In this document: one piece after another, positions 35,558 to 55,209 of the stretch
Layout of the letters: each line of letters begins with the position of its first letter
Numbering within the stretch: position 1 is the stretch's first letter
Translations under genes and position numbers: made by a program
Assembly (NCBI GenBank): GCA_903907865.1
Contig: CAIVPR010000099.1
Coordinates: forward strand, 60,194-124,193
From: an uncultured Acidobacteriia bacterium
GTDB lineage: Bacteria; Acidobacteriota; Terriglobia; Bryobacterales; Bryobacteraceae
Direction of reading: 5' to 3'
Length of the DNA stretch: 64,000 nucleotides
The notes under the pieces: generated by a model
Seen by the model: the letters and a program-made list of their open reading frames with translations, nothing else
What the model was told of the DNA's origin: nothing
Databases searched by the model: none

Positions 35558-37525
35558 TCAATCCAGAACGACCACCTCATAGTCCCTCAAACGCGGCACC
35601 GTGAATTCACTGCGCCCGTCCAGGGCCCGGATCGGCACATTGCCAACATTCCGCAAAGCCCGGCCCGTTCGATACCGCCCCTTCAGCGACACCTTGATTC
35701 CCGCCATCGGGATCGGCGCAAAATAGCCCGTTTGGGAATGGCCCGATAGATTGACCAAGTGCACTTGGGTGTGTCCGTCCTGCAGTAGAACCGTCACTTC
35801 CACCAGCGGGTGCGCGTCGGTCTTCAACTGACGCTCCGGCATCAGGCGGTCCACCACGTCGCGGAACAACGCCGCGTGTGCGGGCAGGCTGTGCCGGTAA
35901 TAGAGCCCGCCCAGATTCCAGGGAATCCAAGCCACACTTCCCTTCCCCTCGGGCTGAACGAAAATGGCCGGGATGTCCGTGTCCCGCATGTCGATATGGA
36001 TGAATTCCGGCGGTCCGATCATCGACGGCGGAACCAGCGTCAGTGGCGGCTGGCCGTTCGCCTTGAGCTCCGTGAAAGGCCCGTCGAGCATCAGCAGGTC
36101 TGTGGCCTTGAGCGATGGAAACGCGGCGTGGTCTCGGACCCGCACATATCCCTTCACGTCCTTTTCCGTCCGCACGACTTGGGCGACATCGAAGTCCGGC
36201 TTCAACGCCGATGCGATCAGAACCTTCCCCCCGCGGCGGGCATATTCCTTGAGCCCCGCAGGAGCCCAGTCCGTCGCCACCACAAGGTCAAACTCCCGCC
36301 GCCCCATCCAATCCATGTTGTCCGAAACGGCGAACGGAATATGCTCCTCGCTGAGTAACCGGAACATCCCGCGATACGGCTCGGTCGCATACGTCCTGCC
36401 TGTATTGGCCGGCGCACCCAGCAACAGCACGCGCGCCGCCGACTGCGAACCTCCAAAATACTGTTCATTTTCCGCCGCCCATCGGAAAATCGGCTTCATG
36501 GTCTCCAAGGCCTGTCGATCCTGGAGGTCCAACGTCCCGTTGACCTCAAACGTCAGGGCACCTCCGTGCGCCAGATTCTGCCATGCCCGAAGCGCGATTT
36601 CATGCCCCGGCACCGTCGCGAATCGCCACCAGTAGTCGACAAACTGCATGTTCAGATTCACCGACGCCTTGCCTGGCTGGCTGTTACGCGCCCGGTCGAC
36701 GTTGTCGCTCGCCGAATACGGCCACAGCGGCAACGGGCGCGCCACCGCCGTGTTGGACTCCGACATGATCCCGTCGGTCGATTCCTGAATGTAGTTGAAG
36801 TATCCGGCCTCGGGACGCTTGGACCGGATCAACGCACCGATTGCCGCCGCCACCTCGCGGGAGGAGTCGAACATGAACTTGCGGTAGTCCTCGTCGGGGT
36901 CAACCGGAATATCCCGGTTGTAGCGCGCCCGGTACTTGGCGCGGCAAACATCGCAATGGCATAGCCCCACCGGCTTGCCCCCGTAATCGCGCGACTGGTT
37001 GCCGAACATGTTGAAGAAGAGGCCGTCAACCGGGTGCGTCTCCAACGCCTCGGACAGGATGCGCATCACCTGCTCCCGGTAGTAGCCACCGTTGATGCAG
37101 GTGGAATACAAGCCGTTGTAGATGACCGGCTGGCCGTCCGCCTGACGGAAGAACCACTCGGGATGGGCGTCGAACGCGGCCTGTCGGGTCTTGGAGAAAT
37201 CGAAACGGCCCACAACTCGGATGTGTTTCGAGTGCGCCGCAGTGATCACGTCGCCAAACATGTCGTGGTCGGATGGCAACTGCGGACTCGGGTAGTGGAA
37301 CGGCACCTTCGTCGGGTAGTAGGCCGAAATCCCGCCCATGCCCATCAGGACCACGTTGGCGCGCATGTCGGCCAGTTGTTCGACCAGTCGGCGGGCGTCG
37401 AGCGTGGCATCCGTTTCGCGAAGGTTGGTCTGGACCCAGCGCATCGGCTCGCGGGTCCACCAGCCCGGATCGGCCTGCAGCCCAACAATCCCAACCAACG
37501 CTAGAAGAATCGCTCGAATCCGCAT
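35558..37525 (-). CDS. Exported glycoside-hydrolase-like protein (GHL6-like TIM barrel)
   Basis: A 655-residue protein. I use the ATG at 37525, which gives a signal peptide (MRIRAILLALVGIVGLQA); 5 more residues are possible from 37540. The N-terminal half fits a TIM-barrel glycosidase related to hypothetical glycosyl hydrolase family 6: VGRFDFSKTRQAAFDAHPEW, NGLYSTCINGGYYREQ, VDGLFFNMFG and GLCHCDVCRAKY. A middle region (about 340-480) looks like a beta-galactosidase trimerisation-type Rossmann domain (PANTGRTYATEPYRGMFRLL). The C-terminal part is beta-rich (VPRLRDYEVVVLD). Catalytic acids cannot be fixed. It starts 39 bases after tadC on the same strand and might receive read-through from the pilus operon. 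Confidence 0.7.
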   Translation of the reverse strand: MRIRAILLALVGIVGLQADPGWWTREPMRWVQTNLRETDATLDARRLVEQLADMRANVVLMGMGGISAYYPTKVPFHYPSPQLPSDHDMFGDVITAAHSKHIRVVGRFDFSKTRQAAFDAHPEWFFRQADGQPVIYNGLYSTCINGGYYREQVMRILSEALETHPVDGLFFNMFGNQSRDYGGKPVGLCHCDVCRAKYRARYNRDIPVDPDEDYRKFMFDSSREVAAAIGALIRSKRPEAGYFNYIQESTDGIMSESNTAVARPLPLWPYSASDNVDRARNSQPGKASVNLNMQFVDYWWRFATVPGHEIALRAWQNLAHGGALTFEVNGTLDLQDRQALETMKPIFRWAAENEQYFGGSQSAARVLLLGAPANTGRTYATEPYRGMFRLLSEEHIPFAVSDNMDWMGRREFDLVVATDWAPAGLKEYARRGGKVLIASALKPDFDVAQVVRTEKDVKGYVRVRDHAAFPSLKATDLLMLDGPFTELKANGQPPLTLVPPSMIGPPEFIHIDMRDTDIPAIFVQPEGKGSVAWIPWNLGGLYYRHSLPAHAALFRDVVDRLMPERQLKTDAHPLVEVTVLLQDGHTQVHLVNLSGHSQTGYFAPIPMAGIKVSLKGRYRTGRALRNVGNVPIRALDGRSEFTVPRLRDYEVVVLD

Positions 37526-37564
37526 GTCGTGCCCCAGCATATCGCGGGAGCCGACGCGGGCCCG

Positions 37565-38509
37565 TTACTTGCCGGTGCCCAGCAACTGCATGTCGTGCAT
37601 GGTCTTGATCACCGCCGGAACCAGCGTGATCACGAAGAGTACAGGCAGAATGAACAGTACGATAGGGAACAGCATCTTGATGCCCGCCTTGCCGACCGCC
37701 TCCTCCGCCCGCAGCTTCCGCTTGTCCCGCAAGTCCTTGGCGAACGCGTTGAGCGCAGTCGAGAGCGGCGTACCGAAACGCTCGCTCTGGATGATCATGG
37801 CCGAGAGCGACTTGATGTCCTCCAGACCCGTCCGGCGTTCCATGCCCTTGAACGCCTTGGCGCGCTCCTGGCCGGCGCGGACCTGCATCGTGACCGTGGA
37901 AAACTCGCTCGCCAAATCTGGATAGATGAATTCCATCTCGGCGGAAACGCGCGTCATCGCCTGGTCGAGCGCCAAGCCTGTGCCCAGGACGATGCCGAGC
38001 ATGTCGATGGTATCCGGCAGCCCTTCCTGCATGCGCTTGCGGCGGTTGGTGGCCATCTTGCCGAGGACGAACTGCGGTCCGATGAACCCGATGATTCCGG
38101 CGGCCACGAAGCCCCCGAACGCGTTCGAGAAATCGTTGTTGCGCTGGCTCCACGCCATGCCCAGCATGCAAAAGAGGAAGAATCCGACCGCGATTGTGAC
38201 GTACCGTCCCAACGCCTCCTCGCCGCGGTAACCGGCGTAGCGGAGGCGCTTTTCGCTCCCCTTGACCCAGTCGTCGCCGCCTGGCACGGAGGAAACGAAA
38301 TTCAAGACCTGGCCCGTGAACCCGCGTGCCTTGCGCTTGGCAGAGCCGCCGCCAATCATGGAACTCCCGTTGACCACTCCGCCACTGCGCAGCGCCTCCA
38401 AGCGGTCGCCAATGGCGTCCTCCTGTGGTTGCAGCAACTGCAGTCCCGCCCAAACGATCACGATGATGGTGGCAAACGCCGCAATGAAAACGAGTATCGC
38501 GCTGAGCAT
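37565..38509 (-). CDS. tadC: Tad pilus inner-membrane platform protein TadC
   Basis: A 314-residue GspF-family membrane protein, one of the two platform subunits through which the TadA/CpaF ATPase drives Flp pilus assembly. Hydrophobic segments are visible at the N-terminus (ILVFIAAFATIIVIVWAGL), in the middle (VTIAVGFFLFCMLGMAW and FVAAGIIGFIGPQFVLG), and at the C-terminus (LFPIVLFILPVLFVITLVPAVI). The GspF domain contains LPDTIDMLGIVLGTGLALDQA and ERFGTPLSTALNAFAKDLR. It follows tadB by 9 bases and is the last pilus gene of the operon. Confidence 0.92.
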   Translation of the reverse strand: MLSAILVFIAAFATIIVIVWAGLQLLQPQEDAIGDRLEALRSGGVVNGSSMIGGGSAKRKARGFTGQVLNFVSSVPGGDDWVKGSEKRLRYAGYRGEEALGRYVTIAVGFFLFCMLGMAWSQRNNDFSNAFGGFVAAGIIGFIGPQFVLGKMATNRRKRMQEGLPDTIDMLGIVLGTGLALDQAMTRVSAEMEFIYPDLASEFSTVTMQVRAGQERAKAFKGMERRTGLEDIKSLSAMIIQSERFGTPLSTALNAFAKDLRDKRKLRAEEAVGKAGIKMLFPIVLFILPVLFVITLVPAVIKTMHDMQLLGTGK

Positions 38510-38518
38510 GTTTGGCTC

Positions 38519-39499
38519 CTAAACCTTCACGTTCGCAATCTGGCGGATGACAATAATCCCGATGATTTCCGAGATGATGCCGTAGGTGAGGAACTTCGTG
38601 CCGAGGGGGTCGGTCCACAGCAGCCTCACATATTCCGGCTTGAGGAACCAGAAGCCCAGACCCACCACACCCGGCAGCGCGCACAGCAGGCCCGCCGAAA
38701 AGCGCTGCGACGCGGTGTGCGCCTTTAGCTTGCCCGCCATGCCGATGCGCTCGCGGATCAGGATGGAGAGGTCGGCCAGTACTTCGACCATGTTGGCACC
38801 GGTTTGGCGCTGCAGGATCAGGCCGGTGATGAAGAACTTGAGATCGATGACGGGCATCCGTTCGCCCAGCTTGTGGAGCGCCGCGTCGATCGACGAACCG
38901 AGCGCCAACTCCTCGGTCACCTTGCGGAACTCCATCCGCATCGGATCCGAGGTCTCCTCGGCGATGGTTTCGAGGCCGGAGTGGATGTTGTGGCCCGCGC
39001 GCATGGTGCGGGTGAAGAGGTCGATGGCGTCGGGGAGTTGCTCCTCGAACTTGGCGATGCGGCTCGAACGCTTATTCATCACGTAGGCGATGGGGATGGA
39101 GCCGATCAGCAGCGCAAATGCAATCTGCAACATCGGAATGGGCACGAAAATGGTCGAGACCAGGTAGATGCCAACTGTGATCGCCAAGCTGACGCCCACC
39201 ACGTCCGCGGCGCGGTAAGGCAGATTGCCCTGCTTGATGTATTCCTGCAGTTTACGGACAAAGCCGAGCCACGTGAAGAAATCGCCGAGGAAGGCAAACG
39301 AGCCACGCTTCTCGCGTTGGAGGAGGTCGGTGGCGCCGCGTTCGCGGGTAGCGCGGGTGTTGGTGCGGACCCCGCGCAGCCGTTCGTCCAGCATGCGCGC
39401 GGCCTGCTGCTGCGGCACCACCCAGACGTAGTAGGCGACGCCGAACAGGACGGCGGAGAAGAACAGGAAGAACAGGATGAAGGGGATTGCGAATGCCAT
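38519..39499 (-). CDS. tadB: Tad pilus inner-membrane platform protein TadB
   Basis: A 326-residue GspF-family partner of TadC. Membrane segments: FILFFLFFSAVLFGVAYYVWV at the start, a pair around residues 105-145 (VSLAITVGIYLVSTIFVPI), and two at the C-terminus. The GspF core is QLPDAIDLFTRTMRAGHNIHSGLE followed by GLILQRQTGANMVEVLADLS. In most Tad loci tadB follows the tadA/cpaF gene directly. Here it follows a two-gene ATPase/TOPRIM insertion, with only 3 bases between the TOPRIM stop and the tadB start, so tadB expression is presumably coupled to the insert. Confidence 0.92.
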   Translation of the reverse strand: MAFAIPFILFFLFFSAVLFGVAYYVWVVPQQQAARMLDERLRGVRTNTRATRERGATDLLQREKRGSFAFLGDFFTWLGFVRKLQEYIKQGNLPYRAADVVGVSLAITVGIYLVSTIFVPIPMLQIAFALLIGSIPIAYVMNKRSSRIAKFEEQLPDAIDLFTRTMRAGHNIHSGLETIAEETSDPMRMEFRKVTEELALGSSIDAALHKLGERMPVIDLKFFITGLILQRQTGANMVEVLADLSILIRERIGMAGKLKAHTASQRFSAGLLCALPGVVGLGFWFLKPEYVRLLWTDPLGTKFLTYGIISEIIGIIVIRQIANVKV

Positions 39500-39502
39500 G
39501 GA

Positions 39503-40162
39503 TTAAACCTCGTACAACCTTCGGAACCAAGTTACAAATGGGGTGGCGGCGGGAAGGAAGGGGTCCAGAGCCTTACGGTTCAATGACCAGCCAGCCGACG
39601 GGCTCGGGAGATCCTGCCACGCCAGCCAAGTGTGCATCTCGGCCTTGGCGGTGTGGGCTTCCTTATAGGTCGCGCCAACTTGACGAGCAGTCCGTGTGGA
39701 TTGTTGAGCATGGTCCCACACCGGTTTGGCCCCACCGGGGATTAGGGTGCTAAGGAAATCCTCCAAGTAACCGGGAGATTCATTATTGGGCATCATCCAG
39801 ATCCCGAGGCGCATCGGGGAACCGAGGGTTTTGACCGAAACCGTGCTGACGAATCCCTCCGCCGGAAGGAATGCCGGCAGCTCCGGACATTCGGAACTCA
39901 GTGCATCCCGCAACTCTCCGTAGCGGTCTGAGGGTGTGCCGTCTGCATCCAGCAGGATACCCAGACGCTTGATATCAGGGTTCGTCAGTCGCGTCTCTAG
40001 AATGTCGGATTTCAACAGGTTGTTGACACCGTTGAGAGAGTCTATCCAGACGGGCACCCTATGTTCCGGCCATCCGATGTGGTGGGCCATCAACTCGACT
40101 ACCGCAAATTTGTCGTCAGGCCCTTCCACCAACAGATGGTTCGGGTTCTTCGGAGACGCCAT
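39503..40162 (-). CDS. TOPRIM-like putative nuclease (DUF3226-type), partner of the upstream ATPase
   Basis: A 219-residue protein with TOPRIM-type metal-binding landmarks: Glu13 in LLVEGPDDKFAV, matching the ExxxD-like first motif, and Asp72/Asp74 in GILLDADG, the DxD motif. The length and pattern fit DUF3226, a small TOPRIM-fold family that accompanies OLD-type ATPases. The start shares one base with the ATPase stop (TGATG), so translation is coupled. Separate ATPase and TOPRIM genes are the layout of PARIS defence (AriA/AriB), and fused forms are OLD nucleases. The role here, presumably DNA or RNA cleavage triggered through the ATPase, is inferred. It has nothing known to do with pilus assembly. 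Confidence 0.7.
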   Translation of the reverse strand: MASPKNPNHLLVEGPDDKFAVVELMAHHIGWPEHRVPVWIDSLNGVNNLLKSDILETRLTNPDIKRLGILLDADGTPSDRYGELRDALSSECPELPAFLPAEGFVSTVSVKTLGSPMRLGIWMMPNNESPGYLEDFLSTLIPGGAKPVWDHAQQSTRTARQVGATYKEAHTAKAEMHTWLAWQDLPSPSAGWSLNRKALDPFLPAATPFVTWFRRLYEV

Positions 40163-41154
40163 CAGCGGACTTCGACCCCCTGTTCGGCCACGATTCTGAT
40201 CTTTGGCTGGTTGTAGGCAATCGACTTAGCCCGTTGGCGCTCGATCCTGTGCAGCGTCACCTGTTCGGATTGCGGAGCCTGATCGTTCTCTTCCGGGCAG
40301 ATGGCGGCCAAGCTTTGGACGCAATCAAAACTGTGCGTGGTGGCGAAAACTTGGACGTCCAGCTCCTTGGCCGTCTTGAAAATCAGCGACCACAGGGGAT
40401 CGAGGACGGTCCGGTGGAGACCGTTGTCGACTTCGTCGACAAGCAACGTCCCCCCCCTGCACTGGGTCAGAGCGATCAGCAGGCAAAGCGCCCGCCAAAT
40501 ACCGTCGCCGAAGCTGCCTACGGGAACCGGACTGGCATCCCCGCGACGCTTCACAATAAAGCCCCCCCGGTCACCGACCGGAACGTGTGCCGCAATCCGT
40601 TCAATCTCGGGATCGAGGAGACGCAGCGACTCGAGCACCAAGTCCTCATCGGGTGTCAGCACAACCTTGTTCCACAGTTCGACTAAGTCTTCGGACTTCA
40701 GGGAGTCCGCTGGCAGAAACTGGATGTTCCTGGGCGGCTTGCTCAACAACCCAGCGAAGGGGGCGATCGTCTCGGACGAGAGGCTGCCGCTGGGTTCCAG
40801 TTGCAACACCACTGGTTGCTTTGGGAAGCGTTCCATTCGAAGGCTGCTAGCCGCTACCGACAGGACAACGGTTTGTTCCTCCGATCCAAGTGAGACGACA
40901 ATTCCTTCACTTATCTCATGCCCAAAGAATAGATGCCGCACGTCAAACGAGTCGCGCACCTTGCCTTCATCGCGCATGGACAGCAAATCCCAAAGCATCT
41001 TGGGATGCCCCTGGGCCGCCAACAGATACACCGCCTCCAGAACCGACGTCTTCCCGCCATTATTCGGACCCACCAACAAGTTCACGCGCCCCAGCCCCTC
41101 CATCCGGAAGTCCTGGAATCCGCGATACCCCTCGATATGGATCGACGAAATCAT
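40162..41154 (-). CDS. OLD/RecF-like AAA ATPase (AAA_15/AAA_21 type)
   Basis: A 330-residue ABC-class ATPase of the SMC/RecF/OLD type without a long coiled coil. Walker A is GPNNGGKT (29-36), the signature motif is SFGDG (214-218), Walker B is TLLVDEVDNGLH (236-247) with Asp240 and Glu241, and the H-loop His274 lies in FATTHS. The N-terminal IHIEGYRGF strand is the hallmark of the family. Such ATPases are sensors or motors in OLD, PARIS, Septu and related anti-phage systems. It lies 32 bases after cpaF and directly precedes the TOPRIM gene, in the same direction as the pilus genes. No MITE, tRNA or transposase borders the pair. Confidence 0.88.
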   Translation of the reverse strand: MISSIHIEGYRGFQDFRMEGLGRVNLLVGPNNGGKTSVLEAVYLLAAQGHPKMLWDLLSMRDEGKVRDSFDVRHLFFGHEISEGIVVSLGSEEQTVVLSVAASSLRMERFPKQPVVLQLEPSGSLSSETIAPFAGLLSKPPRNIQFLPADSLKSEDLVELWNKVVLTPDEDLVLESLRLLDPEIERIAAHVPVGDRGGFIVKRRGDASPVPVGSFGDGIWRALCLLIALTQCRGGTLLVDEVDNGLHRTVLDPLWSLIFKTAKELDVQVFATTHSFDCVQSLAAICPEENDQAPQSEQVTLHRIERQRAKSIAYNQPKIRIVAEQGVEVR

Positions 41155-41186
41155 CTGTGCCTGCTCGGTCTGCCTACTCGGTCTAC

Positions 41187-42503
41187 CTACTTATCAGCCA
41201 CTTCCACAACCTCGTTGAAGATCGTCTTCGACAAATGAATCCCATACCCCCGCAGTTTATCCAAACACTGCGGCTGGTTGCCCATCCCTCGGAACTTGCC
41301 CACCACCTTGCCGCGCGGGCTGATGCCGACCCGCTCAAACTCGAAGATATCCTGCATCTCGACTTGGTCGTTGTGCACGCCGGTCACTTCCGCGATGCCC
41401 GTGATCTTGCGCGTACCGTCGCTCATACGCCCGCACTGTACCACCAAATGGATTGCCGACGCCAGTTGCTGCCGGATCACGCGGTCCGGCACATTCTGGC
41501 TCGCCATCATCACCATCGTCTCAAGCCGCGAGAACGCGTCGCGCACCGTGTTGGCGTGCAACGTCGTCATCGACCCGTCGTGGCCCGTGTTCATCGCCTG
41601 CAGCATGTCCAGCGCTTCCGGTCCCCGCGATTCACCGACGATGATCCGGTCGGGACGCATACGCAGGGTATTGATCACCAAGTCGCGCGCCGTCACCGCG
41701 CCCGAGCCTTCGATGTTCGCCGGTCGCGTTTCGAGCCGCACCACGTGTGGCTGCTGCATCTGCAATTCGGCGGTGTCCTCGATGGTTACCACACGCTCGT
41801 TCTCCGGGATGAACCGCGAAAGCGTATTCAAAATCGTCGTCTTGCCGGAACCCGACCCGCCCGAGATCACGATGTTCAACCGCGCCTCGACGCACCCACT
41901 CAGGAAGTCCAAGATCCCGTGCGAGAACGTCTGGTTCTTCAGCAGTTCCTCGGTGGTCAGCAGCTTCTTGCCGTACCGACGGATTGACATCACCGGCCCG
42001 ATCAACGACAACGGTGGAATCACGGCGCAAACACGCGAGCCGTCATCCAAGCGGGCGTCCACGATCGGCGACGAATCGTCGATGCGCCGACCAACGTTGG
42101 ACACGATGCGGTCGATGATCATCCGCAAATGCGCCTGGTCCTTGAACCGGACGTTGGTCTCCACGAGTCGGCCGTGGCGCTCGACATACACGTTGTCGTA
42201 GCCGTTCACCATGATGTCGGAAATCGACGAATCCTTCAGCAACGGCTCCAAGGGGCCCAGTCCGAAGACTTCGTCCTGGATCTCCTCGGCGACGCGGTCG
42301 CGTTCGGCGAGGGTCATCGGCAGACCCTCGTCCGCCACCAGCCGTTCCACCAACTGGGCGATTTGGGCGCGCACGCCCTCCTTGCTCAGAGTCCTCAACT
42401 GCTCCGGCGTGAGCGTGTTGAGGAGCTTTAGGTGTACCTGGCTCTTGATCTCAAACCATCGGTCGGCCCCGGAACCGGGCCGTCCCATCGGACGTGTGCT
42501 CAA
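41187..42503 (-). CDS. cpaF: Tad pilus assembly/retraction ATPase TadA (CpaF)
   Basis: A 438-residue secretion ATPase of the VirB11/GspE superfamily that powers Flp pilus dynamics. Landmarks: an N-terminal all-helical part (residues 20-90), a Walker A ISGGSGSGKTTI, an Asp-box region VVTIEDTAELQMQQPHVVRLE, a Walker B-type IIVGESRGPEALDMLQAMNTGHDGSMTTLHAN, and a C-terminal FEFERVG. The protein ends in a VVEVADK tail. It overlaps cpaE by 4 bases. The gene order breaks after it: the next two genes are not pilus genes. Confidence 0.95.
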   Translation of the reverse strand: MSTRPMGRPGSGADRWFEIKSQVHLKLLNTLTPEQLRTLSKEGVRAQIAQLVERLVADEGLPMTLAERDRVAEEIQDEVFGLGPLEPLLKDSSISDIMVNGYDNVYVERHGRLVETNVRFKDQAHLRMIIDRIVSNVGRRIDDSSPIVDARLDDGSRVCAVIPPLSLIGPVMSIRRYGKKLLTTEELLKNQTFSHGILDFLSGCVEARLNIVISGGSGSGKTTILNTLSRFIPENERVVTIEDTAELQMQQPHVVRLETRPANIEGSGAVTARDLVINTLRMRPDRIIVGESRGPEALDMLQAMNTGHDGSMTTLHANTVRDAFSRLETMVMMASQNVPDRVIRQQLASAIHLVVQCGRMSDGTRKITGIAEVTGVHNDQVEMQDIFEFERVGISPRGKVVGKFRGMGNQPQCLDKLRGYGIHLSKTIFNEVVEVADK

Positions 42504-43681
42504 GCTGCCTTCCCTTCAACCGCTGATAACGGCTTGGTGGCCTTGTCGACCATCGCGCGGATGGCCTTGTCGATCTCCGGAGCCGCCTGCCGGTTGGCCA
42601 CCAGCGGTCGCGCCTGGTTCAGCGCCGAGAGGAACTCGGGGCTCTCGGGCACCCCATAGAAAATCGGCTGATTCAACGTCTGCTTGATCTGGTCCAAGCT
42701 GGCGTAGTTGGGCCCCGCCTTCTTCTGGTAGCGGTTCACCACAACCTTGATCTGATCTTGCGAGAACCCGGTCCGCATCAACATCGCCAAGTAGCGCTGC
42801 GCATTGCGGATCGACGCATATTCCTGCGTGACCACCAAGAACATCATCGCGGATACCTGGCAGGCACCCGCAACGACTTCGTCGTTCAGGTTCTTGCCGC
42901 CGTCCACGATCGTGGCGTCGTACTTTTCGATCAGGAAGGTGGAAAAGTCGCGGAACATCGGCTCGGTGAAATACCCGCGGTGTTCCAGCGAATCCGACGG
43001 GCCGATCATATGGAGGCCGAGTTGGTCGCGCACGGCCAAGCTTTCAAACAGCGCTTGGTCAAGCCGCGCCAAGTTGTCGGCGACATCCGAAAGGCTCGAC
43101 TGCGGGTTGGCGCCGAACTGCACCGCCATGTCGTTACCCGTCCAATCGAGGTCGACGGTGACCACCGACTGCTTCCTCTGTGCCAAGACCGCTGCGAAGT
43201 TGGAGGCCAGTGTGGTCGTCCCGACGCCGCCCTTGGTGCCGAGGAAGGTGTAGACCTTGCCGAGCTTGCTCTCGGTCGTGACAATCCGCTTCGGAGCCCG
43301 CTCGAAACGCGCCATAGCATCGCGGAAATCGGTCCGACGCAGCGGCTGGAGTACGAAATCGTTGGCACCCATCCGCATCGCCTGGATCACGGTCTCACCG
43401 TCGGCGTGGTAGTGCGACACGATCACGTAAAGGTCGGGCACGGCCTGCTTGAGGCGCTCCAAGGACTTGAGTCCCGCCTCGGTGTCGCCCGCCAGATCGA
43501 CGATCACCGCCGAGTTCGGGTGGCGCTCAATGTCCTGCATGACGCGGACATAGAGATTGCCGGACACCTCCTGGTATTCCGACCCGACCTTGGAGTTCGG
43601 AACGTTGAGCAGGTTGTCCCGGACCATCTCCCGGAAATGTTCGTCGCTCGAGGCGACCATCAGGACGAAGGGCGTAGACAT
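42500..43681 (-). CDS. cpaE: Tad pilus localisation ATPase CpaE/TadZ
   Basis: A 393-residue MinD/ParA-like ATPase with an N-terminal receiver-like domain (VIVDLAGDTEAGLKSLERLK, MGANDFVLQPLRR). The ATPase domain starts with the deviant Walker A GTKGGVGTTTLASNFA and continues with VDLDWTGNDMAVQFG and the Walker B-like DATIVDGGKNLNDE. CpaE/TadZ proteins direct the pilus machine to the pole. The receiver lacks the full phosphorylation site, as is usual for the family. It follows the tadE-like gene by 38 bases. Confidence 0.92.
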   Translation of the reverse strand: MSTPFVLMVASSDEHFREMVRDNLLNVPNSKVGSEYQEVSGNLYVRVMQDIERHPNSAVIVDLAGDTEAGLKSLERLKQAVPDLYVIVSHYHADGETVIQAMRMGANDFVLQPLRRTDFRDAMARFERAPKRIVTTESKLGKVYTFLGTKGGVGTTTLASNFAAVLAQRKQSVVTVDLDWTGNDMAVQFGANPQSSLSDVADNLARLDQALFESLAVRDQLGLHMIGPSDSLEHRGYFTEPMFRDFSTFLIEKYDATIVDGGKNLNDEVVAGACQVSAMMFLVVTQEYASIRNAQRYLAMLMRTGFSQDQIKVVVNRYQKKAGPNYASLDQIKQTLNQPIFYGVPESPEFLSALNQARPLVANRQAAPEIDKAIRAMVDKATKPLSAVEGKAA

Positions 43682-43719
43682 GGACTAGTAGACCTTTCCA
43701 AAACTCATTGGAATCAAAC

Positions 43720-44235
43720 TCATGGATTGCATGTCCCCTGTTCGGGGTCGCAGCCGTTGCCCTGCGTCGACACCGAGGTCGAAAACGACGGCATCGGAAT
43801 GGTCGGCAGCTTCAGATACGTGACGAAACGGCGAAACTCGTAGTTTGTCACGCTCACCGTGACAGTGTCGGGGACACAAGTCGTCGAGCAGTCCCCCTGG
43901 CACTCGAACGCACCCAGCGCACCTGTTGACGGGTCGCGGCTGAAGTAGTCGATGTTGATCGTCGCACTACCGCCGGACTGGAACTGGGCCTTGTCGATAT
44001 TGACGGGAATGTGCGACTGCATGTAGTCGCGGACATTCGTGCTGCTGGCTTCCCAGCAGTGGGTCGCCGCGTATTGCGCGCCCAAGCGGGTGAATTCCGT
44101 CATGCTGTGCCACACCCAATACATCTCGGACACATAGACGATGCCGAAAGTGAGCGGCAGGATCACGCCGGCGTACATGAAGGCGAATTCGAGAATGGCC
44201 TGTCCGGACCGCCGGTTCCGTTTACGTTCCGCCAT
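43720..44235 (-). CDS. TadE-like minor pseudopilin
   Basis: A 171-residue protein with a basic N-terminus followed by RRSGQAILEFAFMYAGVILPL, the TadE/TadF pattern in which the prepilin peptidase cuts after Gly and leaves a Glu at position +5. A single membrane helix follows, then a periplasmic domain with several cysteines (THCWEAS, ECQGDCSTTCVP, NGCDPEQGTCNP) that could form disulfides. Minor pseudopilins prime or cap the Flp fibre. It overlaps the preceding gene by 14 bases. Confidence 0.85.
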   Translation of the reverse strand: MAERKRNRRSGQAILEFAFMYAGVILPLTFGIVYVSEMYWVWHSMTEFTRLGAQYAATHCWEASSTNVRDYMQSHIPVNIDKAQFQSGGSATINIDYFSRDPSTGALGAFECQGDCSTTCVPDTVTVSVTNYEFRRFVTYLKLPTIPMPSFSTSVSTQGNGCDPEQGTCNP

Positions 44236-44728
44236 AAGGCACCTTCACCTGTGGTTTCAATGGAATCGCGAGGAGCGGCAGGAACGGAATCCGGGGCGTG
44301 ATCATGTAGCCGTTCGGAATCGAGACGAGAATAAACCCCGGTGCCTTGCCTCCTGCCGCCAAGTCGCAACCTGTTACCGAGCAGTCGCACGGGCCGATGG
44401 CACCCGTTACGGAATCGACGACCTGCGGGCTGACCGTGATCATGTCCGGCGTCAGGCCGGTAATCAGGGTTGGCTGAGTGTTGTCGGTGGTGCCGGTCAA
44501 GCCGAAACTGATCGCCTGTTGGACATTTGCATCCGTGGGATCACAGAAATTCGTCCCCTGCTGGGCGCTCAGGTACGACCCAACCGAGTAGATGGCCTTA
44601 CGCAGATTGTAGTAGGTGTACGTGATCTTGGCAATCTGGCCCATGCCGACCAGCAGGAGCACGATCACTGGGATCAGCATCGCCGATTCCAACAACACAT
44701 TCCCGCGCCGGCGTCCTAAGATCCTCAT
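44222..44728 (-). CDS. TadE/TadF-like minor pseudopilin
   Basis: A 168-residue protein: RRRGNVLLESAMLIPVIVLLL is a pseudopilin start with Gly before the hydrophobic helix and Glu at +5. The periplasmic part has cysteine-containing loops (NFCDPT, GPCDCSVTGCD). It pairs with the tadE-like gene downstream (overlap) and overlaps tadG by 4 bases (ATGA). Which of the two corresponds to TadE and which to TadF cannot be settled from the sequence alone. Confidence 0.83.
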   Translation of the reverse strand: MRILGRRRGNVLLESAMLIPVIVLLLVGMGQIAKITYTYYNLRKAIYSVGSYLSAQQGTNFCDPTDANVQQAISFGLTGTTDNTQPTLITGLTPDMITVSPQVVDSVTGAIGPCDCSVTGCDLAAGGKAPGFILVSIPNGYMITPRIPFLPLLAIPLKPQVKVPYGGT

Positions 44729-46035
44729 TGGTGCAGGACCACCTTTCCCGGACCGCTGGAAATGGAACAGGAGGGTGCCGAGATGCTGCCCTGCTTCACC
44801 GGCTTCACAACTCCGATGTACATGGCGGTGAAGCGTCCTCCGGCGTCGGTCGGATCGTTGGCGACCGGGGTCACGTTGGGCGTGGGCTCCAGCAGGAATT
44901 GGCGGAAACCGAGGACGGTCATCGACCCATCCGTAGCCAGCGCAGCCACAATCGGAACGGTCATGACACGGGTATTATTCCCGGCGTAGGAAGTGTAGTC
45001 GGTGATGGCCGGGGTCAAATCGGTATCGCCCGTGTAGGCCGAGGCGACGGTTCCAACATCGGTGATGTTCTGGCACGCGGTGATCTGCGTCGGATCGGCC
45101 ATGCGCGAACTCAGACCACACACAGCATCCGTAACCCGGGTGTCCACCGCAGCACCCGTGGCGCGACATGCAGCTACGGCAATCACGCTGGAGTTTGCGG
45201 ACCAAACGGCCTCGGTGCCGCCAATCGTCGAACAAGCGAAACCGGGAGTGGATGCCGAGGGAATCAGACCCTGCGCCCCCACGCGGAACAGCTGCTGGTC
45301 CTCTGCGAAGGTACTGCCGGTGTCGTAGCGGTCCAGAAGCAAATACTTCAACGCGGGTGCGGTGGAGCCTGCCAGCAGCGTGACGTTGTTCGTGCAGTCG
45401 AAGGCAAAGGTATAGATCTGGCCGTTGACGAGGCCGAAATCGTTGGGATCGGAAGTATCCACGGCCGCGATGGCAAACGGCTCAATACCGCAAGCGGTGC
45501 AGACCGGGGCACTCACCCCCGCAATCGCAGCCGCCGCGATTGAGGCTTTCCGGCTCTGGCCCAACGAAAGCAGCCCCCAAAACGTCAGCGGAGCATCCGC
45601 GTTGAGGTTCACCAGAACGTGGCGTGCCGTGGTGCCGTCGGCAGTCGAGCCCCCGGTTGTCCCAAACGCGGCCATGGCGTCGGCCAAGGCAGCAAAGAAG
45701 CTAGGCGACTGGACGGTACTGGTGAGCAAGGCGCTGCCCTGTCCCACGACCAATGACCCGAAATTGAACTTGTTCCCGTCCTGCAACGAATTGTCCAAAG
45801 TCACCTGGCCCGCCGCCGTGGCCGTATCGAGCGCGCCGGAAGTGCCGTTCAACTGTGCGGCTGCGGAAAGCGCGATGGCGCTCGCCGCTTGGTTGAGCTC
45901 GGCGCGGACCAAATACATCCGGCCAAGGTCCACCGCGAACCCCATGAACCCCAGCACCACCGGCACCATGATCACGAGGAACTGGAGGGACATCGTCCCC
46001 GAACGACCGCTACTGTTTCGGTTGCTGTTCACCAC
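44725..46035 (-). CDS. TadG-like pilus protein with N-terminal Tad domain
   Basis: A 436-residue protein. The N-terminal segment SGRSGTMSLQFLVIMVPVVLG and DLGRMYLVRAELNQAASAIAL is the Flp pilus-assembly TadG-like N-terminal domain, a single membrane helix followed by a helical stretch. The large periplasmic part is low in recognisable motifs, with paired cysteines (VCTACGIEP, FACST, VCGLSSRM, CQNITD). The 46035 GTG start keeps the basic RSG motif before the helix; an ATG at 45993 would remove it. It overlaps cpaC by 26 bases. Confidence 0.82.
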   Translation of the reverse strand: MVNSNRNSSGRSGTMSLQFLVIMVPVVLGFMGFAVDLGRMYLVRAELNQAASAIALSAAAQLNGTSGALDTATAAGQVTLDNSLQDGNKFNFGSLVVGQGSALLTSTVQSPSFFAALADAMAAFGTTGGSTADGTTARHVLVNLNADAPLTFWGLLSLGQSRKASIAAAAIAGVSAPVCTACGIEPFAIAAVDTSDPNDFGLVNGQIYTFAFDCTNNVTLLAGSTAPALKYLLLDRYDTGSTFAEDQQLFRVGAQGLIPSASTPGFACSTIGGTEAVWSANSSVIAVAACRATGAAVDTRVTDAVCGLSSRMADPTQITACQNITDVGTVASAYTGDTDLTPAITDYTSYAGNNTRVMTVPIVAALATDGSMTVLGFRQFLLEPTPNVTPVANDPTDAGGRFTAMYIGVVKPVKQGSISAPSCSISSGPGKVVLHQ

Positions 46036-47383
46036 GAGGCCCCACGAACTGCGCCCCTTTTTTCTTGTCCTTCTTCGCCTTCACTTGGGCGTTGTTGGGC
46101 AGGAAGGTCATCGGGAAATCGGGCAATGCGCCCTTTTCGCCGACCGGGATCGGCTTCACGAAGTGCGGAGTGATCAACACCAGAAGCTCGGAATTCGACT
46201 TCTTGGTGGACCGGCTCTTGAACAGTTGGCCCAGGATCGGGATGTCGCCGAGGATCGGGAACTTCATGACCTCTTCGGTAACACGGTTGTCGATGAGGCC
46301 CGCAATGGCGAAGCTCTCACCGTCCTTGAGAATCACCTCAGTCTCGGCCCGGCGCTGCGAGATAGCCGGTATCAGGAAGCCCTGAAGGGTCACGGCATTG
46401 GCGAAGTCGAGGGAGCTGACTTCCGGCGAGACCTGCAAATTGATCAGGCCGTTGGGAGTGATCGTCGGGGTGAAGTCCAATTTGACGCCGAACGGCTTGA
46501 ACTGCACCGTGATGACGGGAGCGACGGAACCGCCGGTCGAGGTCGTCGTCAGCACTGGGAACGGGAACGAGCCGCCTGCAAGGAAACTTGCGGTTTTGCC
46601 TTCCACCGTCATCAGATTCGGTTCCGCGAGAACTTGGAGGACATCGCGCTGCTGCATCGCCTCGATGGTCGCGCCGATGTTGAGGTCGGGGCGGTAGACG
46701 AAGAGGTTCAGGAGATCGGCGAAATTGACCGTCTGCTGGCCGGTCGGCTGCAACTGGCTGAAGCGGGGCGACTGGAACTGGCCGGTGCTCAATTCGCCAA
46801 TCGCCACGCCGTTCCGGCTGAAGAGGTTGAAGCCGAGTTGTTCGAGCGCCGTGCGGTCGATGCTGGCAAATTTGACCTGGAGGACGATTTGCCGTGGCTC
46901 CGGGGCTGGTGGCGCGGTGACCTCGTTCAAGACGGTCTTGGCGCGGGTGGCCGCCAAAGCTCCGGCGAGCTTGATCTGCTTCTGGTCGGCGGCGGTGCCC
47001 TTCAGGACGATGGTTTCGCCCTTGCCCGTGATTTCGATATTGCTGCCCGGAAGTTGAGCCTTGAAAGAGGCCTTGAAGGCCTCGTATTCGCTGTTGTCCA
47101 GCGTGACATCCACATCGTACCGGATCGGAGTAGTACCTTCCCAAATGACGACCGTGGTCTTGCCCGGCTCCTTGCCGTTCACCATCACATCGCGAGGGGA
47201 AACGACAACCACGTCCGCAATCTTCGGTTCCGAGGCGGCAACCTGCTTGACGTCCGTCGAAAACTGCAACAGTTCGCCGCGACCGGCAGTGAGCACCAAG
47301 GTCCGGCGCACGGGCGGAGTTTGGGCGCATAGCACCACCGTGGCTGCGGTTGCGAGGATGGCGGAAAACCCGAATTTAGTCAT
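46010..47383 (-). CDS. cpaC: Tad pilus outer-membrane secretin CpaC (RcpA)
   Basis: A 457-residue secretin that forms the outer-membrane pore for the Flp pilus. I choose the ATG at 47383 (MTKFGFSAIL), which has AGGAAG six bases upstream and overlaps cpaB by 8 bases; a start at 47401 is possible but lacks a site. N-terminal pilus/BON-like modules (AASEPKIADVVVVSPRDVMV, IEITGKGETIVLKGTA) precede the secretin domain (ALEQLGFNLFSRNG, QVLAEPNLMTVEGKTASFLAGG, VKLDFTPTITPNGLINLQVSPEVS, LDIPILGQLFKS-like end). The C-terminus is lysine-rich. Confidence 0.93.
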   Translation of the reverse strand: MTKFGFSAILATAATVVLCAQTPPVRRTLVLTAGRGELLQFSTDVKQVAASEPKIADVVVVSPRDVMVNGKEPGKTTVVIWEGTTPIRYDVDVTLDNSEYEAFKASFKAQLPGSNIEITGKGETIVLKGTAADQKQIKLAGALAATRAKTVLNEVTAPPAPEPRQIVLQVKFASIDRTALEQLGFNLFSRNGVAIGELSTGQFQSPRFSQLQPTGQQTVNFADLLNLFVYRPDLNIGATIEAMQQRDVLQVLAEPNLMTVEGKTASFLAGGSFPFPVLTTTSTGGSVAPVITVQFKPFGVKLDFTPTITPNGLINLQVSPEVSSLDFANAVTLQGFLIPAISQRRAETEVILKDGESFAIAGLIDNRVTEEVMKFPILGDIPILGQLFKSRSTKKSNSELLVLITPHFVKPIPVGEKGALPDFPMTFLPNNAQVKAKKDKKKGAQFVGPRGEQQPKQ

Positions 47384-48290
47384 GGAAAACTTCCTGGACA
47401 TGCTTGTCCCCGCGGAAAACGTCTACGACGGCGCGCGGCGGGGGCGGCGGCGCGGGCTTTTCTTTCACAACCGGAACTGGCGGCACTGGCGGGTCCTTCG
47501 GTTTGACGCCAGCCAGAGCGTCCCAAGCCTTGGGATCGGTGAGATTGGGCGAACTGCGCAACTTCTCGGTCACCGCAAGTTTCGCCCGCATTGCAGGATC
47601 CAAGGTGTCGGTGGCGATGGGCTTGCCGTCCAAATCCGTCCCGGAGTCGAGCGGATTGCGCAACGAGAGGCTAATCCGACCTTGGTTCTTGGCCAGCTCC
47701 AACTTCTGGGCGTCTGAGGGGGTGACCAGCAGGGTGGCAACCGGAATCTTCTGGGCCTTGGGGTCCACCGGCGCACCGGGAACCACGTTGTGGCCGATGG
47801 CCAGCACCTTGACGTTCTGGAGGATGGTCGAAGTGATCGCCTCCGCCATCGAGCCGGGGCGGGTAAAGAGGACATCGACGTGGCCGCCCGGCTGAATCAG
47901 TCCGGCGACCCCGCTGACGTCGGTGATCGTCACCGCGACGGCGCGATAGCCCGGGGCGATGGTGGAAGGCAGCCCTTCGGGGCCCGATTGGGCCGCCAGT
48001 GCATTCTTGACCAGGGGCGTATTGGCAGCCAACGGGAACAGGGCGACGTGGTCGACCGCGTCCTTGTCCGCGAGTACCGCGCCCGACGGAATGTCGCGCG
48101 CCAGAACCTGGACCTTCTTCAGGTCCGACTTGTGCACGGCCTGGCCGATGGCGATGTCGTGGGTCAGGGCGAACACCGGCGTGCGGGGTTCCTGTTTCGG
48201 GGTGATTGCGGTCTTGTAGACGAACCCCGCCAGCAACATCGCGGAAAGCAATGCGGCGGCGAACAGGATGATGATGCGTTGACGATCCAT
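47376..48290 (-). CDS. cpaB: Flp pilus assembly protein CpaB
   Basis: A 304-residue periplasmic protein anchored by an N-terminal helix (RIIILFAAALLSAMLLAGFVY). It contains the SAF domain used by CpaB (VFALTHDIAIGQAVHKSDLK, VLARDIPSGAVL) and the RcpC-like region (VTITDVSGVAGLIQPGGHVDVLFTR, VKVLAIGHNVV, LLVTPSDAQKLELAKNQGRISLSLRN). The last 40 residues are proline-rich. CpaB is thought to stabilise the secretin and bind peptidoglycan. The start shares one base with the upstream stop (TGATG). Confidence 0.92.
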   Translation of the reverse strand: MDRQRIIILFAAALLSAMLLAGFVYKTAITPKQEPRTPVFALTHDIAIGQAVHKSDLKKVQVLARDIPSGAVLADKDAVDHVALFPLAANTPLVKNALAAQSGPEGLPSTIAPGYRAVAVTITDVSGVAGLIQPGGHVDVLFTRPGSMAEAITSTILQNVKVLAIGHNVVPGAPVDPKAQKIPVATLLVTPSDAQKLELAKNQGRISLSLRNPLDSGTDLDGKPIATDTLDPAMRAKLAVTEKLRSSPNLTDPKAWDALAGVKPKDPPVPPVPVVKEKPAPPPPPRAVVDVFRGDKHVQEVFHD

Positions 48291-49906
48291 CAGGCTCGAC
48301 GTCCTTCCTTGGTATTAGATTTTTCCGGTGCGGCCCCTACCGGCGAGGCAAGCAGCACGGCGACGCCGTCGCGGTAAGTCTCGGTCCAGCCGCGCGCCTT
48401 GAGCGCTGGAACCAGTGAATAGTCGAGCGGCAGCAGGGCATGGGTGAAATTCCACTTGTCGAACAAGTCGGTCCAGCCGGGCCGGACCTGCACCATGCGG
48501 GAGTACGATTGCAGAAACGCGGCTCCATAGAAGTCGCTGCGCCCGTCGAAGAAGACTTTGCGGGCACCCTGGAAACGGTAGATCAGGTAGCCGCCGAACT
48601 TGTCGGAGGAGAAGATCCGGGCATCCGGCGGAAGTTTGGCGATTGTGGAGGAGGCCGCGACAGGAAACTGGTCGGCCGGGAAGCCGGGGTGCAAGGCGGG
48701 AAGCAGTGTGAAAATCGCCACAGCCACCAGCGGCAGCAGAACGAGACCCGAGAGCCTGGAATCCTGTTTCCGCAGACCCTCCCCATAGGCGAGGAAGCCG
48801 TCAAGCCACCGGCGAAAATTCAAAGCCAGTCCGGTTGCCGAGGCTAGTCCCGCGGTAATGGAGCCGTTCGCGAGGGGCAGCAGAATCAGGGCCGCCACGG
48901 GCAGCATCCGGGCCGACCGCAACGCGCCCGCCGTGACCACAACCGCGAGTAGGAAGCGTTCGATCCGTTGGTCGAGCAACGCCGCCAAGCCACCGGCGAA
49001 ACCGATGAGGAGCGCCAGCATGATCTGCGCGGAACCCTCGGCGTGGAAATTGAAGCTCTGGAATTCGCCGATGCGGTCCAGCAGTTGGGCATCGACCATG
49101 TAGGCGAAGACATGCCTGTGGAGGTTCCAGCCCTGGGGATTTGCCAAGGTCCCGAGCGCCGCCGCCATCAAGATCATCAGCGCATTGCGCCACGACCGCG
49201 AAAAGTTCCCGAAAACCTGCCCATTGGCCCACGCACCCAGCGCATAGACCGCTGCGACCAAGGGTCCGAGGAAGAAACTGCCGTGGACGTTGGCCCAGAA
49301 GGCGGAGAGCGCGACGACGCCGACGAAGTGCGTCCAGTGCAGACGGGCCGGCATCCGCTCAAAAAACCAAACAAACCCAAGCAGGAACAGCCAGCCGAAA
49401 ACGTGGGGTCGGGCGAGCCAATGGAGGTTGGTGGTCGACAACATCGGGGCCGCGAAGAGGCAGGCCAGGAGGAAATTGCCGCCAGCCGCCCAGTTCAGCC
49501 GGAACCATAGCCAGACGGACGTTGCGATGGCCAAGCAGTAGAGAGCCGCCACGCCGCCAAGCCCCGACATCCGGTGCACGGCCGCCACGGCGACATCGGC
49601 ACCCCATTCCCAAGCCACCCACGCAGCCCCCGGTTTTGAGAACGAAAATGGATCCCCGTGGGGCAGCGAGCGGGTCGCGATCATCTGCTCCCCGGCGCGA
49701 ATGTGCCACCCGGCGTCGGCATCCCGAAACAAAGCTTTGGGGGCACCGAAGAACGCAATCAGATACAAGACCGCCACCAGCGCGCCCGAAAGCGCAAGGT
49801 CCGGGGCGAGACTCGCCAAGGCCAGCGATCCCGTCGAGCGGGTAGAGGTATACCCGGCGAGCCCGGACGCTAGTCCGGGCCGGGCGATGGTGTCGAGGGT
49901 GTGCAA
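48290..49906 (-). CDS. Polytopic membrane protein in Tad locus (GT-C-like pattern), function unknown
   Basis: A 538-residue integral membrane protein with about ten hydrophobic segments. Near the N-terminus, after the first helix, it has RDADAGWHIRAGEQMI and DPFSFSKPGAAW-WEWG blocks, an acidic loop arrangement similar to GT-C glycosyltransferases and oligosaccharide-transfer proteins. The C-terminus ends with a soluble part (FSSDKFGGYLIYRFQGARK, FFDGRSDFYG). I do not recognise a named family. Its place between flp and cpaB, with one-base overlap to cpaB, suggests a role in pilus biogenesis, for example glycosylation of pilin or another envelope protein, but this is inference. Confidence 0.75.
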   Translation of the reverse strand: MHTLDTIARPGLASGLAGYTSTRSTGSLALASLAPDLALSGALVAVLYLIAFFGAPKALFRDADAGWHIRAGEQMIATRSLPHGDPFSFSKPGAAWVAWEWGADVAVAAVHRMSGLGGVAALYCLAIATSVWLWFRLNWAAGGNFLLACLFAAPMLSTTNLHWLARPHVFGWLFLLGFVWFFERMPARLHWTHFVGVVALSAFWANVHGSFFLGPLVAAVYALGAWANGQVFGNFSRSWRNALMILMAAALGTLANPQGWNLHRHVFAYMVDAQLLDRIGEFQSFNFHAEGSAQIMLALLIGFAGGLAALLDQRIERFLLAVVVTAGALRSARMLPVAALILLPLANGSITAGLASATGLALNFRRWLDGFLAYGEGLRKQDSRLSGLVLLPLVAVAIFTLLPALHPGFPADQFPVAASSTIAKLPPDARIFSSDKFGGYLIYRFQGARKVFFDGRSDFYGAAFLQSYSRMVQVRPGWTDLFDKWNFTHALLPLDYSLVPALKARGWTETYRDGVAVLLASPVGAAPEKSNTKEGRRA

Positions 49907-49931
49907 ACCGTCCCGCTGGCCTTTTGCTGAA

Positions 49932-50147
49932 CTACTGCTGGGTCGCGCCGATGCTCGAAAGGTCGGCCGTGATGCTGGAGTACAGGCTGGCGATTCCCTG
50001 CGAGAGGGTGTTGACGGTGGTGATCAGCGCAAGGCCCACCGCCGCGACGATCAACGCGTACTCGACCAAGTCCTGGCCCTGTTCATCCCGGACGAACCGG
50101 TTGGTTGCCGCCGCGAGGCGCAAGAACGTTTGTTTCATAGTAGGCAT
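49932..50147 (-). CDS. flp: Flp major pilin
   Basis: A 71-residue type IVb prepilin. The leader ends at Gly24, followed by Q-D-L-V-E-Y (Glu29 at +5, Tyr30), then a hydrophobic helix ALIVAAVGLALITTV. This GxxxxEY pattern is the Flp signature cut by a TadV/CpaA-type prepilin peptidase; no such peptidase gene lies in the window. AGGAG precedes the ATG at 50147 by only 2 bases, so the ATG at 50138 (MKQTF) is a real alternative. It is followed after 25 bases by the polytopic membrane gene. Confidence 0.93.
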   Translation of the reverse strand: MPTMKQTFLRLAAATNRFVRDEQGQDLVEYALIVAAVGLALITTVNTLSQGIASLYSSITADLSSIGATQQ

Positions 50148-50155
50148 GTCTCCTT

Positions 50156-51226
50156 TTAGTTCGATCCCTGACGCTGGCTCGATCCCTGGTCGCGGGGGGC
50201 GATGGCGCTACCCGCTCCGTTGGCTGCTTCAACGCCAGTATTTGTAAATCCGTTGGCGGTAGGGCGGACGCCTCTCAGGTGCCGCCAAGTCCGGGCGACC
50301 CACGATCCGCCCCGCTTTCCCGACCTGCCCGCAACGGCCCCGTCCGGGGCATCCTTGCGGGGTAAGAGTTTGATATCCGCAGGCTTGCCGTCGAGTTTCG
50401 AAACCAGTTCCAGATTGCTCAAGGCTGCGGGGTGTTGACGATTATAACGCAGGGCCTCGTCGAGTTCATGGCGGGCCTCGGCATACTTTCCAGCCTCGAT
50501 GAACGCCGCGGCGAGGTTGTTGTGCGCAGTGGCGGGGTCGCTGACCGACTGGAGGTTGGCGACGGCTTCCGATGGATTCGACGTCAGGACGGAACCCAGA
50601 TTGTTGCGGGCCACGACGGACTGCGGATTCAGTTGGACCGCCGACCGGAACTCCGCCTCCGCCTCTTTGCGCTTGCCCTGACGCAGCAGGCAGTAGCCAA
50701 GATTGTTGTGCAGGTCATCGCGGTCGGGAGCGATGGCCAGTGCCTTGCGATACGCAGCCTCGCCGCCCTTCCAGTCGCCGGAATCATCGCGGACCAGGCC
50801 GAGCCACGCCCAGCCTGTGGCACCGAGTTCCCGTGTCTTGCCGAATTCACCGAGGGATTTGGCCGCCTCGCCGGAACGTTCCGCGCGCCAGAGGAGCTTC
50901 GCGAGCTCGACGTGCGCTTCCTCGGATTCGGGGACGCGCTCGATCGCCAGTCGGCCGTGTTCAATCGCGACCTCATGGAAGCCAAGTGCCTCGTAGCGGT
51001 GGGCGAGGGCGAAACGTGCCTGAAGGTCGCCGGGATTGGCGTCCAGTTTGGCGCGAAGTTGGCGCAGGTCATAATCGCCGTCGCCGGCATCCACTGCGTT
51101 CACGGCCTCGCGCTGGACGATCCGGTGCGGGGTCGGTTGAACCGACCGCGATACCAGCGAGGAGTGCCGCGAACACGAGCACAGGACCAAGCTGGCCGCG
51201 AAAACCTGGATTGCGCCTTTTGTCAT
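50156..51226 (-). CDS. TPR lipoprotein, TadD-like
   Basis: A 356-residue protein with a lipoprotein-type signal (AASLVLCSC; lipobox Cys near residue 16) and about six TPR repeats between residues 50 and 280 (ARFALAHRYEALGFHEVAIEHG, DDLHNNLGYCLLRQGKRKEAEAEF, ATAHNNLAAAFIEAGKYAEARHEL). The C-terminal 70 residues are basic and glycine-rich. TadD in other Tad loci is a TPR lipoprotein needed for secretin assembly, and position next to flp supports the same role. The start overlaps the DUF192 stop (ATGA), and it ends 8 bases before flp. Confidence 0.85.
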   Translation of the reverse strand: MTKGAIQVFAASLVLCSCSRHSSLVSRSVQPTPHRIVQREAVNAVDAGDGDYDLRQLRAKLDANPGDLQARFALAHRYEALGFHEVAIEHGRLAIERVPESEEAHVELAKLLWRAERSGEAAKSLGEFGKTRELGATGWAWLGLVRDDSGDWKGGEAAYRKALAIAPDRDDLHNNLGYCLLRQGKRKEAEAEFRSAVQLNPQSVVARNNLGSVLTSNPSEAVANLQSVSDPATAHNNLAAAFIEAGKYAEARHELDEALRYNRQHPAALSNLELVSKLDGKPADIKLLPRKDAPDGAVAGRSGKRGGSWVARTWRHLRGVRPTANGFTNTGVEAANGAGSAIAPRDQGSSQRQGSN

Positions 51227-52059: not shown

Positions 52060-52120
52060 CGGGTTCCACTCGGTTGAAACCCAACGCGGGTTATAATTGT
52101 CAATCGCTTTGAGCCGCCGA

Positions 52121-55134: not shown

Positions 55135-55209
55135 GCGGGAGTAACTCAATGGTAGAGTCACAGCCTTCCAAGCTGTTGGTTGCGAGTTCGATCCTCGTCT
55201 CCCGCTCCA
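55135..55209 (+). tRNA. tRNA-Gly (anticodon TCC)
   Basis: Full cloverleaf: acceptor GCGGGAG/CTCCCGC, D-stem ACTC/GAGT, anticodon stem ACAGC/GCTGT with loop CTTCCAA, T-stem GCGAG/CTCGT with loop TTCGATC, encoded CCA. Anticodon TCC reads GGA/GGG. TACAAT at 55112-55117 is a candidate -10 box. Confidence 0.95.

Follow-up and report, generated by a model that had tools for sequence, protein, structure and literature searches.

A likely horizontally acquired ATPase/TOPRIM gene pair of the candidate PDC-M38 type between cpaF and tadB of a Tad pilus operon

Among described defence systems, PARIS (AriA/AriB; class 4 OLD) keeps an ATPase and its partner as separate proteins. According to the part of the report available to us (PMC12409363), an AriA hexamer holds AriB and frees it on sensing a phage protein, and AriB then cuts tRNA. 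The published rule for PARIS, as given in the available text of PMC9122126, combines an ATPase matching AAA_15 (32 bits) or AAA_21 (27 bits) with a partner matching DUF4435 (27 bits). Here we analyse a gene pair of similar build in 64,000 nucleotides of contig CAIVPR010000099.1 from an uncultured Bryobacteraceae bacterium (the whole stretch is hereafter called the window). It consists of an OLD-like ATPase gene and a TOPRIM gene of Pfam family DUF3226, and it lies between cpaF and tadB of a Tad pilus operon. Both proteins match PDC-M38, a candidate system of PADLOC-DB. A literature search by name found no paper on DUF3226 or on PDC-M38, and our literature searches found no description of PDC-M38, or of defence genes, placed in Tad or other conserved or housekeeping operons. 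On balance, and with moderate confidence, we favour the reading that this is a likely horizontally acquired and likely anti-phage pair of PDC-M38 type, placed seamlessly between cpaF and tadB; it is predicted to be co-transcribed with the pilus genes and is likely not itself a pilus component. What the analysis below shows is where the pair stands, that relatives lack it at these junctions, that its motifs are intact, which folds are predicted and that such pairs recur.

The pair and its place in the Tad operon

The ATPase gene (40162-41154, minus strand; 330 amino acids) encodes an OLD/SMC/Rad50-type ABC ATPase, with Pfam AAA_21 (65 bits) and AAA_15 (63.6 bits) both over the cut-off. Its best PADLOC match is PDC-M38A (4.6e-72), followed by an AbiLi model (7.5e-50), with AriA (3.7e-23) among the lesser matches. 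The TOPRIM gene (39503-40162, minus strand; 219 amino acids) matches DUF3226 (E 1.9e-52, 178.5 bits) and PADLOC PDC-M38B (2.4e-45). The ATPase stop and the TOPRIM start overlap by one base (TGATG), and the two genes are framed on the same strand by cpaF upstream (41187-42503; Pfam T2SSE, 2.2e-59), across 32 bases, and by tadB downstream (38519-39499; Pfam T2SSF, 3.1e-16), across 3 bases. The initial annotation had described a split OLD-like ATPase/TOPRIM pair in a Tad operon; open reading frame (ORF) calls, sequence and Pfam domains bear this out, together with its coordinates, overlap, gaps and motifs. Both proteins of the pair are listed on five contigs, the longest of 128,358 bases, which speaks against a chimaera, and the placement is probably not an assembly error.

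We compared the best cpaF matches only, 30 loci (123 of 150 genomes matched) plus three more, giving 33 with the window's own. Among the 32 others, cpaF and tadB are adjacent in all 28 relatives having both genes, with an estimated gap of -12 to +13 bases. The initial annotation's suggestion of a pair hitch-hiking in a pilus operon fits these contiguous junctions. Three of the remaining four loci (L043, L046 and L167) stop at the contig end after cpaF. The fourth, L042 (G126:C186), may be a rearranged Tad operon or a contig artefact: its cpaF is followed by a tadZ-like match, and tadB was not matched within 1.5 kb. In the nearest relatives, genomes G101 and G154 (cpaF 96% identical), the cpaF stop is 9 bases from the tadB start; in the window the distance is 1,687 bases. 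Insertion of the pair between cpaF and tadB in this lineage is therefore likely, and we infer that it occurred by transfer and that the pair is co-transcribed with the Tad operon. Additionally, the third-position GC (guanine plus cytosine) fraction of the ATPase gene (0.72) and the DUF3226 gene (0.67) is the lowest of the 12 operon genes, compared with 0.83-0.86 for cpaF, tadZ, tadB and tadC and 0.76-0.81 for the other six.

Both junctions were inspected at base level. The left one (41155-41186, minus strand), with the cpaF stop at its edge, is 32 bases long and is mostly taken up by a tandem 13-base repeat (41158-41170 and 41171-41183). At the right one (39500-39511, minus strand), the last TOPRIM codons contain GAGG, eight bases ahead of the tadB start, and are followed by the TAA stop and the 3-base gap to the tadB ATG. 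A ribosome-site-like AGGAG overlaps the cpaF stop in G101, and the GAGG of the TOPRIM gene may likewise maintain tadB translation in the window. A search of 39350-41330 for repeats of at least 10 bases, which leaves shorter target duplications outside its reach, found none bracketing the insert, only the tandem repeat and short pairs. Scans of 37400-50300 say little: a promoter consensus matched a single sigma-70-like site, away from the pair, where 2.4 would be expected, and 8 terminator-like sites were seen where 12.0 would be, with two of the 8 lying in the ATPase gene.

The sequence motifs of both proteins are intact and widely kept. In the ATPase, Walker A GPNNGGKT (residues 29-36; 41047-41070, minus strand) carries K35, which is kept in 108 of 109 aligned pairs, the last having a gap; further motifs are SFGDG (214-218), D240-E241 and H274. 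The second protein is predicted to adopt a TOPRIM fold with a glutamate, a DxD motif and a third acid, as in OLD-like chemistry. Its first motif, EGPDD (40112-40126, minus strand), holds E13 and D17: position 13 is E in 104 of the 109 pairs (four gaps, one K), and position 17 is D in 86 and E in 18. The DAD motif (39941-39949, minus strand) holds D72, present in 109/109, and D74, where D occurs in 88 pairs and N in 21. E134 (39761-39763, minus strand), the third acid, is likewise E in all 109. These acids would bind metal. The candidate defence family (DUF3226 TOPRIM) thus gains a predicted active site and, by modelling, a putative relation to OLD folds. In the viral structure library no match went below E 0.085, and a protein search with the window TOPRIM protein as query returned no match but itself.

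The rest of the operon runs in the same direction. Downstream of tadB lies tadC (37565-38509; Pfam T2SSF, 2.9e-20), and the part upstream of cpaF (42500-48290, from ORF calls and Pfam) comprises tadZ (42500-43681), two small TadE/F-like ORFs named by position only (43720-44235 and 44222-44728), a TadG-like gene (44725-46035), a secretin gene (46010-47401) and cpaB (47376-48290), with Pfam domains secretin, RcpC/CpaB and Tad. A glycosyl-hydrolase-like gene (GHL6; 35558-37540) follows tadC on the same strand. Elsewhere, the window has two plus-strand tRNA genes (22925-22997 and 55135-55206) and two long ORFs (52097-55102, 1001 amino acids; 55337-57370, 677 amino acids) with no Pfam match at 1e-8.

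Recurrence and occupied operon junctions

Outside the window we analysed 80 named genome loci, the best of 558 listed. An ATPase match lies directly upstream of DUF3226 in 78 of these 80 and in 5/5 viral contigs, so the association is not due to chance and the pair is a real two-gene unit. L113, which lies near the end of a contig, and L149, whose match begins at residue 40, are the two exceptions. Titles of the 80 loci name many cyanobacteria and also Planctomycetes, Desulfobulbus-like bacteria, Acidobacteria and more. Nearer to the window the distribution is patchy: DUF3226 was matched in 19 of 150 genomes of the order (single-protein query), in 25 of 237 genomes and 13 of 76 genera of the family (alignment query), and in 3 of 19 genomes of the genus, namely the window's own, G101 and G154. 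The sequences closest to the window pair are 42-48% identical. A tree was built from the 112 of 121 loci with a usable pair, three duplicates being removed. In it the window pair groups, with weak support, with six same-family loci: L109 (which has the same pair as L205), L061, L204, L198, L199 and L060. Support is 0 with L109, 0.45 for the seven-member group and 0.91 for a ten-member group. The window's genome also holds a second pair, about 30% identical (G000:C141:15483-16154; L076), close behind a 903-amino-acid gene that has a deacetylase/caspase-type look when read by eye.

Related pairs occupy other operon junctions of the family. In G103 (L061) a pair with 42.5% and 48.3% identity stands 43 bases from folD on one side and 17 bases from coaE on the other; CoaE was assigned by Pfam and FolD by eye. 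Of the 91 folD matches in 101 genomes we took the best 30; the 29 from other genomes all have coaE after folD on the same strand, with an estimated gap of -12 to 75 bases and one partial alignment unclear. In G034 (L078) an epimerase gene and a glycosyltransferase gene flank a pair at distances of 28 and 6 bases; these two genes are adjacent or about 0.1 kb apart in seven other genomes with both, one more (L277) being cut. In G101 and G154 (L210 and L215), a distant pair (about 25% identical) lies within the 1,858 bases between prfA and prmC; the two loci, which hardly differ, are treated as a single event.

The prfA locus was found 17 times in the genus (19 genomes searched). The estimated gap to prmC is -2 to 27 bases in twelve, and two hold the pair; G047 stops at the contig end, and G024 shows no prmC match in 5.9 kb after prfA. 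The last is the window's own genome, where 2,879 bases precede prmC (G000:C166; L267:6750-9647). This 2.9-kb insert, on the strand opposite prfA, encodes GmrSD_N, HEPN and C5 DNA methylase proteins. PADLOC matches the GmrSD_N protein to NsnA and PD-T4-2_A and the methylase to DrmMII and type II methylase models, and gives no match for the HEPN protein. The same junction thus holds a restriction-like cassette in one species and an ATPase/TOPRIM pair in its sisters.

In all, four family junctions, Tad included, are occupied by a pair in a single lineage, and relatives lack it there. Because empty is the majority state, pairs presumably entered these junctions and were not lost from them elsewhere. 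As the empty junctions show, conserved operons take up such pairs between genes that run in one direction, and this recurrent, seamless use of operon junctions goes beyond the initial annotation. Across the window's order, both flanks were resolved in 31 of 40 loci, and our gene caller, a simple script checked by eye on the window alone, found four embedded on both sides by co-directional genes: the window, L061, L078 and L206 (G246). L210 and L215 are embedded too; the caller missed prmC there.

Plasmids carry DUF3226 pairs as well. One is found on a mobilizable plasmid of Citrobacter (6.4 kb) and one on a 9.7-kb plasmid of Acinetobacter. On a Plesiomonas shigelloides plasmid (L266) the pair comes after genes for a phage tail (tape measure, tail protein X, VgrG-like), which would suit carriage by a prophage. 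At 1e-5, the window TOPRIM query matched 8 plasmid records out of 72,556 and no phage record out of 50,697. The initial annotation had made the defence idea depend on company with defence genes, and here the outcome is divided: clear defence neighbours are few, and the prfA|prmC junction provides the link just described. In 34 of the 80 named loci (at least 20.5 kb long), PADLOC families numbered 142 on 136 near genes and 14 on 132 far genes; we draw no count from this, because families overlap on one gene and the near set is longer (49,383 vs 36,285 residues). By Pfam, the leading family among the near genes is Uma2, with 8 genes, a family common in cyanobacteria.

Proposed function and alternative explanations

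On the model of PARIS, the ATPase would act as sensor and scaffold and keep its TOPRIM partner inactive until it senses a product of the phage or a change that the phage causes. The TOPRIM protein, then released or activated, would be a metal-dependent nuclease that may cut nucleic acid (tRNA or DNA) and so stop growth. Trigger, target and phage defence itself are matters of inference. In the window the pair would have no promoter of its own and would ride the Tad promoter, and the likely ribosome site given by the last TOPRIM codons would allow the downstream pilus genes still to be made. Other operons of the family also contain related pairs, so what would count is that the host operon is transcribed, not that it makes pili; such pairs likely spread by lodging in existing operons and likely have no special tie to pili. 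More tentatively, and with less than even confidence, PDC-M38 pairs in general might be operon passengers: compact immune cassettes inserted seamlessly in conserved operons (Tad, folD-coaE, prfA-prmC, sugar-nucleotide), using host transcription, giving back the ribosome site and sharing junctions with restriction-like cassettes. If so, defence genes could spread without island, integrase or promoter and would be missed by island-based searches. If the role in phage defence is real, operon junctions like prfA|prmC would be places to seek defence genes outside islands.

Several observations run counter to a simple version of this view. We compared the flanks of the pair in 68 of the 80 named loci (12 dropped for an unresolved pair or flank) with 74 control gene pairs. 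A close co-directional downstream gene follows in only 8/68 loci vs 27/74 controls (Fisher p 8e-4), from which the pairs tend to end a transcription unit; the upstream figures are 21/68 vs 24/74, and close co-directional genes stand on both sides in 3/68 vs 9/74. Operon embedding as a general rule is therefore rejected. In several cyanobacterial species, moreover, genes of the size and family of metH and alaS (from family tallies and length) stand directly before the pair, which suggests long residence. Finally, Cran1, an archaeal OLD ATPase, is reported outside virus defence and as apparently essential in the available part of PMC12796447.

Cran1 is the precedent for an unlikely alternative, in which the pair is a cellular nucleic-acid maintenance or cell-cycle factor that moves between operons by chance. 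The metH- and alaS-like neighbours agree with it, as does the best structural match of the TOPRIM model, 2p62, an archaeal protein without stated function. Against it, presence in just 25 of 237 family genomes does not suit a core function in the window's family, the pair occurs on small plasmids and beside phage tail genes, and it shares the prfA|prmC junction with the GmrSD/HEPN/methylase cassette.

We regard a toxin-antitoxin or addiction pair serving mainly its own maintenance as quite improbable. Carriage by small plasmids would suit it, and so would the available account of Fusobacterium AbiLii, the partner of AbiLi, which inhibits E. coli growth (PMC3985639), given the AbiLi match of the window ATPase. 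Yet the same portion of that report has AbiLii not neutralised by AbiLi, and for PARIS the accessible text of PMC9122126 gives deletion of either gene as non-toxic.

That the pair belongs to the pilus, guarding or regulating Tad assembly as the initial annotation had proposed, is highly improbable: its location at operon spacing between cpaF and tadB is set against a junction without the pair in 28/28 relatives, related pairs in folD|coaE, prfA|prmC and epimerase|glycosyltransferase junctions, and searches with cpaF, tadB, tadC and tadZ that matched nothing around the pair, either in 85 other loci, with at most 10 kb of flank and often a shorter one, or in 20 family regions. In a set of 29 loci from the order, a single distant cpaF-like match (29% identical) was seen, 1.4 kb from the pair in L073 and on the opposite strand; it was not counted as a Tad operon. 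Both a Tad pilus component and a pilus role were accordingly rejected, and the pair is likely no part of the pilus. The initial annotation had taken a pair conserved in most Tad operons with lost TOPRIM acids as the mark of a pilus function; the reverse is seen, the acids being kept and the pair not a Tad feature. A PARIS system with a diverged AriB has as little to commend it, because DUF4435 is absent and PDC-M38A lies far above AriA for the ATPase. A hitch-hiking defence pair is the best reading. The initial annotation's interpretation is partly supported; its PARIS and pilus-guard readings are unsupported.

Comparison with described systems

The pair fits PDC-M38 closely: both proteins match its models strongly, and the genes adjoin with a one-base overlap. 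The initial annotation had pointed to PARIS, and the window ATPase does exceed both published thresholds for the PARIS ATPase. However, the second protein gives no DUF4435 match at E 1 (just DUF3226 and a sub-threshold DUF5343) and no AriB model match at E 10 or below. PARIS membership was therefore rejected; the pair is built like PARIS yet is not PARIS.

OLD nucleases, Gabija GajA and retron effectors contain ATPase and TOPRIM modules of the same type, but in the accounts available these are fused, or accompanied by helicase or retron parts, whereas the window encodes two proteins. The fused OLD classes are single polypeptides, and here a stop codon separates two genes; in Gabija a UvrD-like helicase, GajB, adjoins GajA, and here the direct neighbours are cpaF and tadB. 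Cran1 (class 5 OLD, archaea) likewise has OLD-type ATPase and TOPRIM domains, but the available part of PMC12796447 describes a fused protein with a cell-cycle role. AbiL resembles the window pair in its AbiLi-like ATPase and, in the portion of the source at hand, in being bicistronic; the window's second protein matches only PDC-M38B models at E 10 or below, in a library whose inclusion of an AbiLii model was not confirmed. For the junctions, the closest parallel lies in the core defence hotspots of Pseudomonas aeruginosa, where, in the accessible text of PMC10250203, differing systems share one place between core genes, as at prfA|prmC. Those hotspots are islands (medians 26 and 6 kb), whereas here single two- or three-gene cassettes stand between neighbouring genes.
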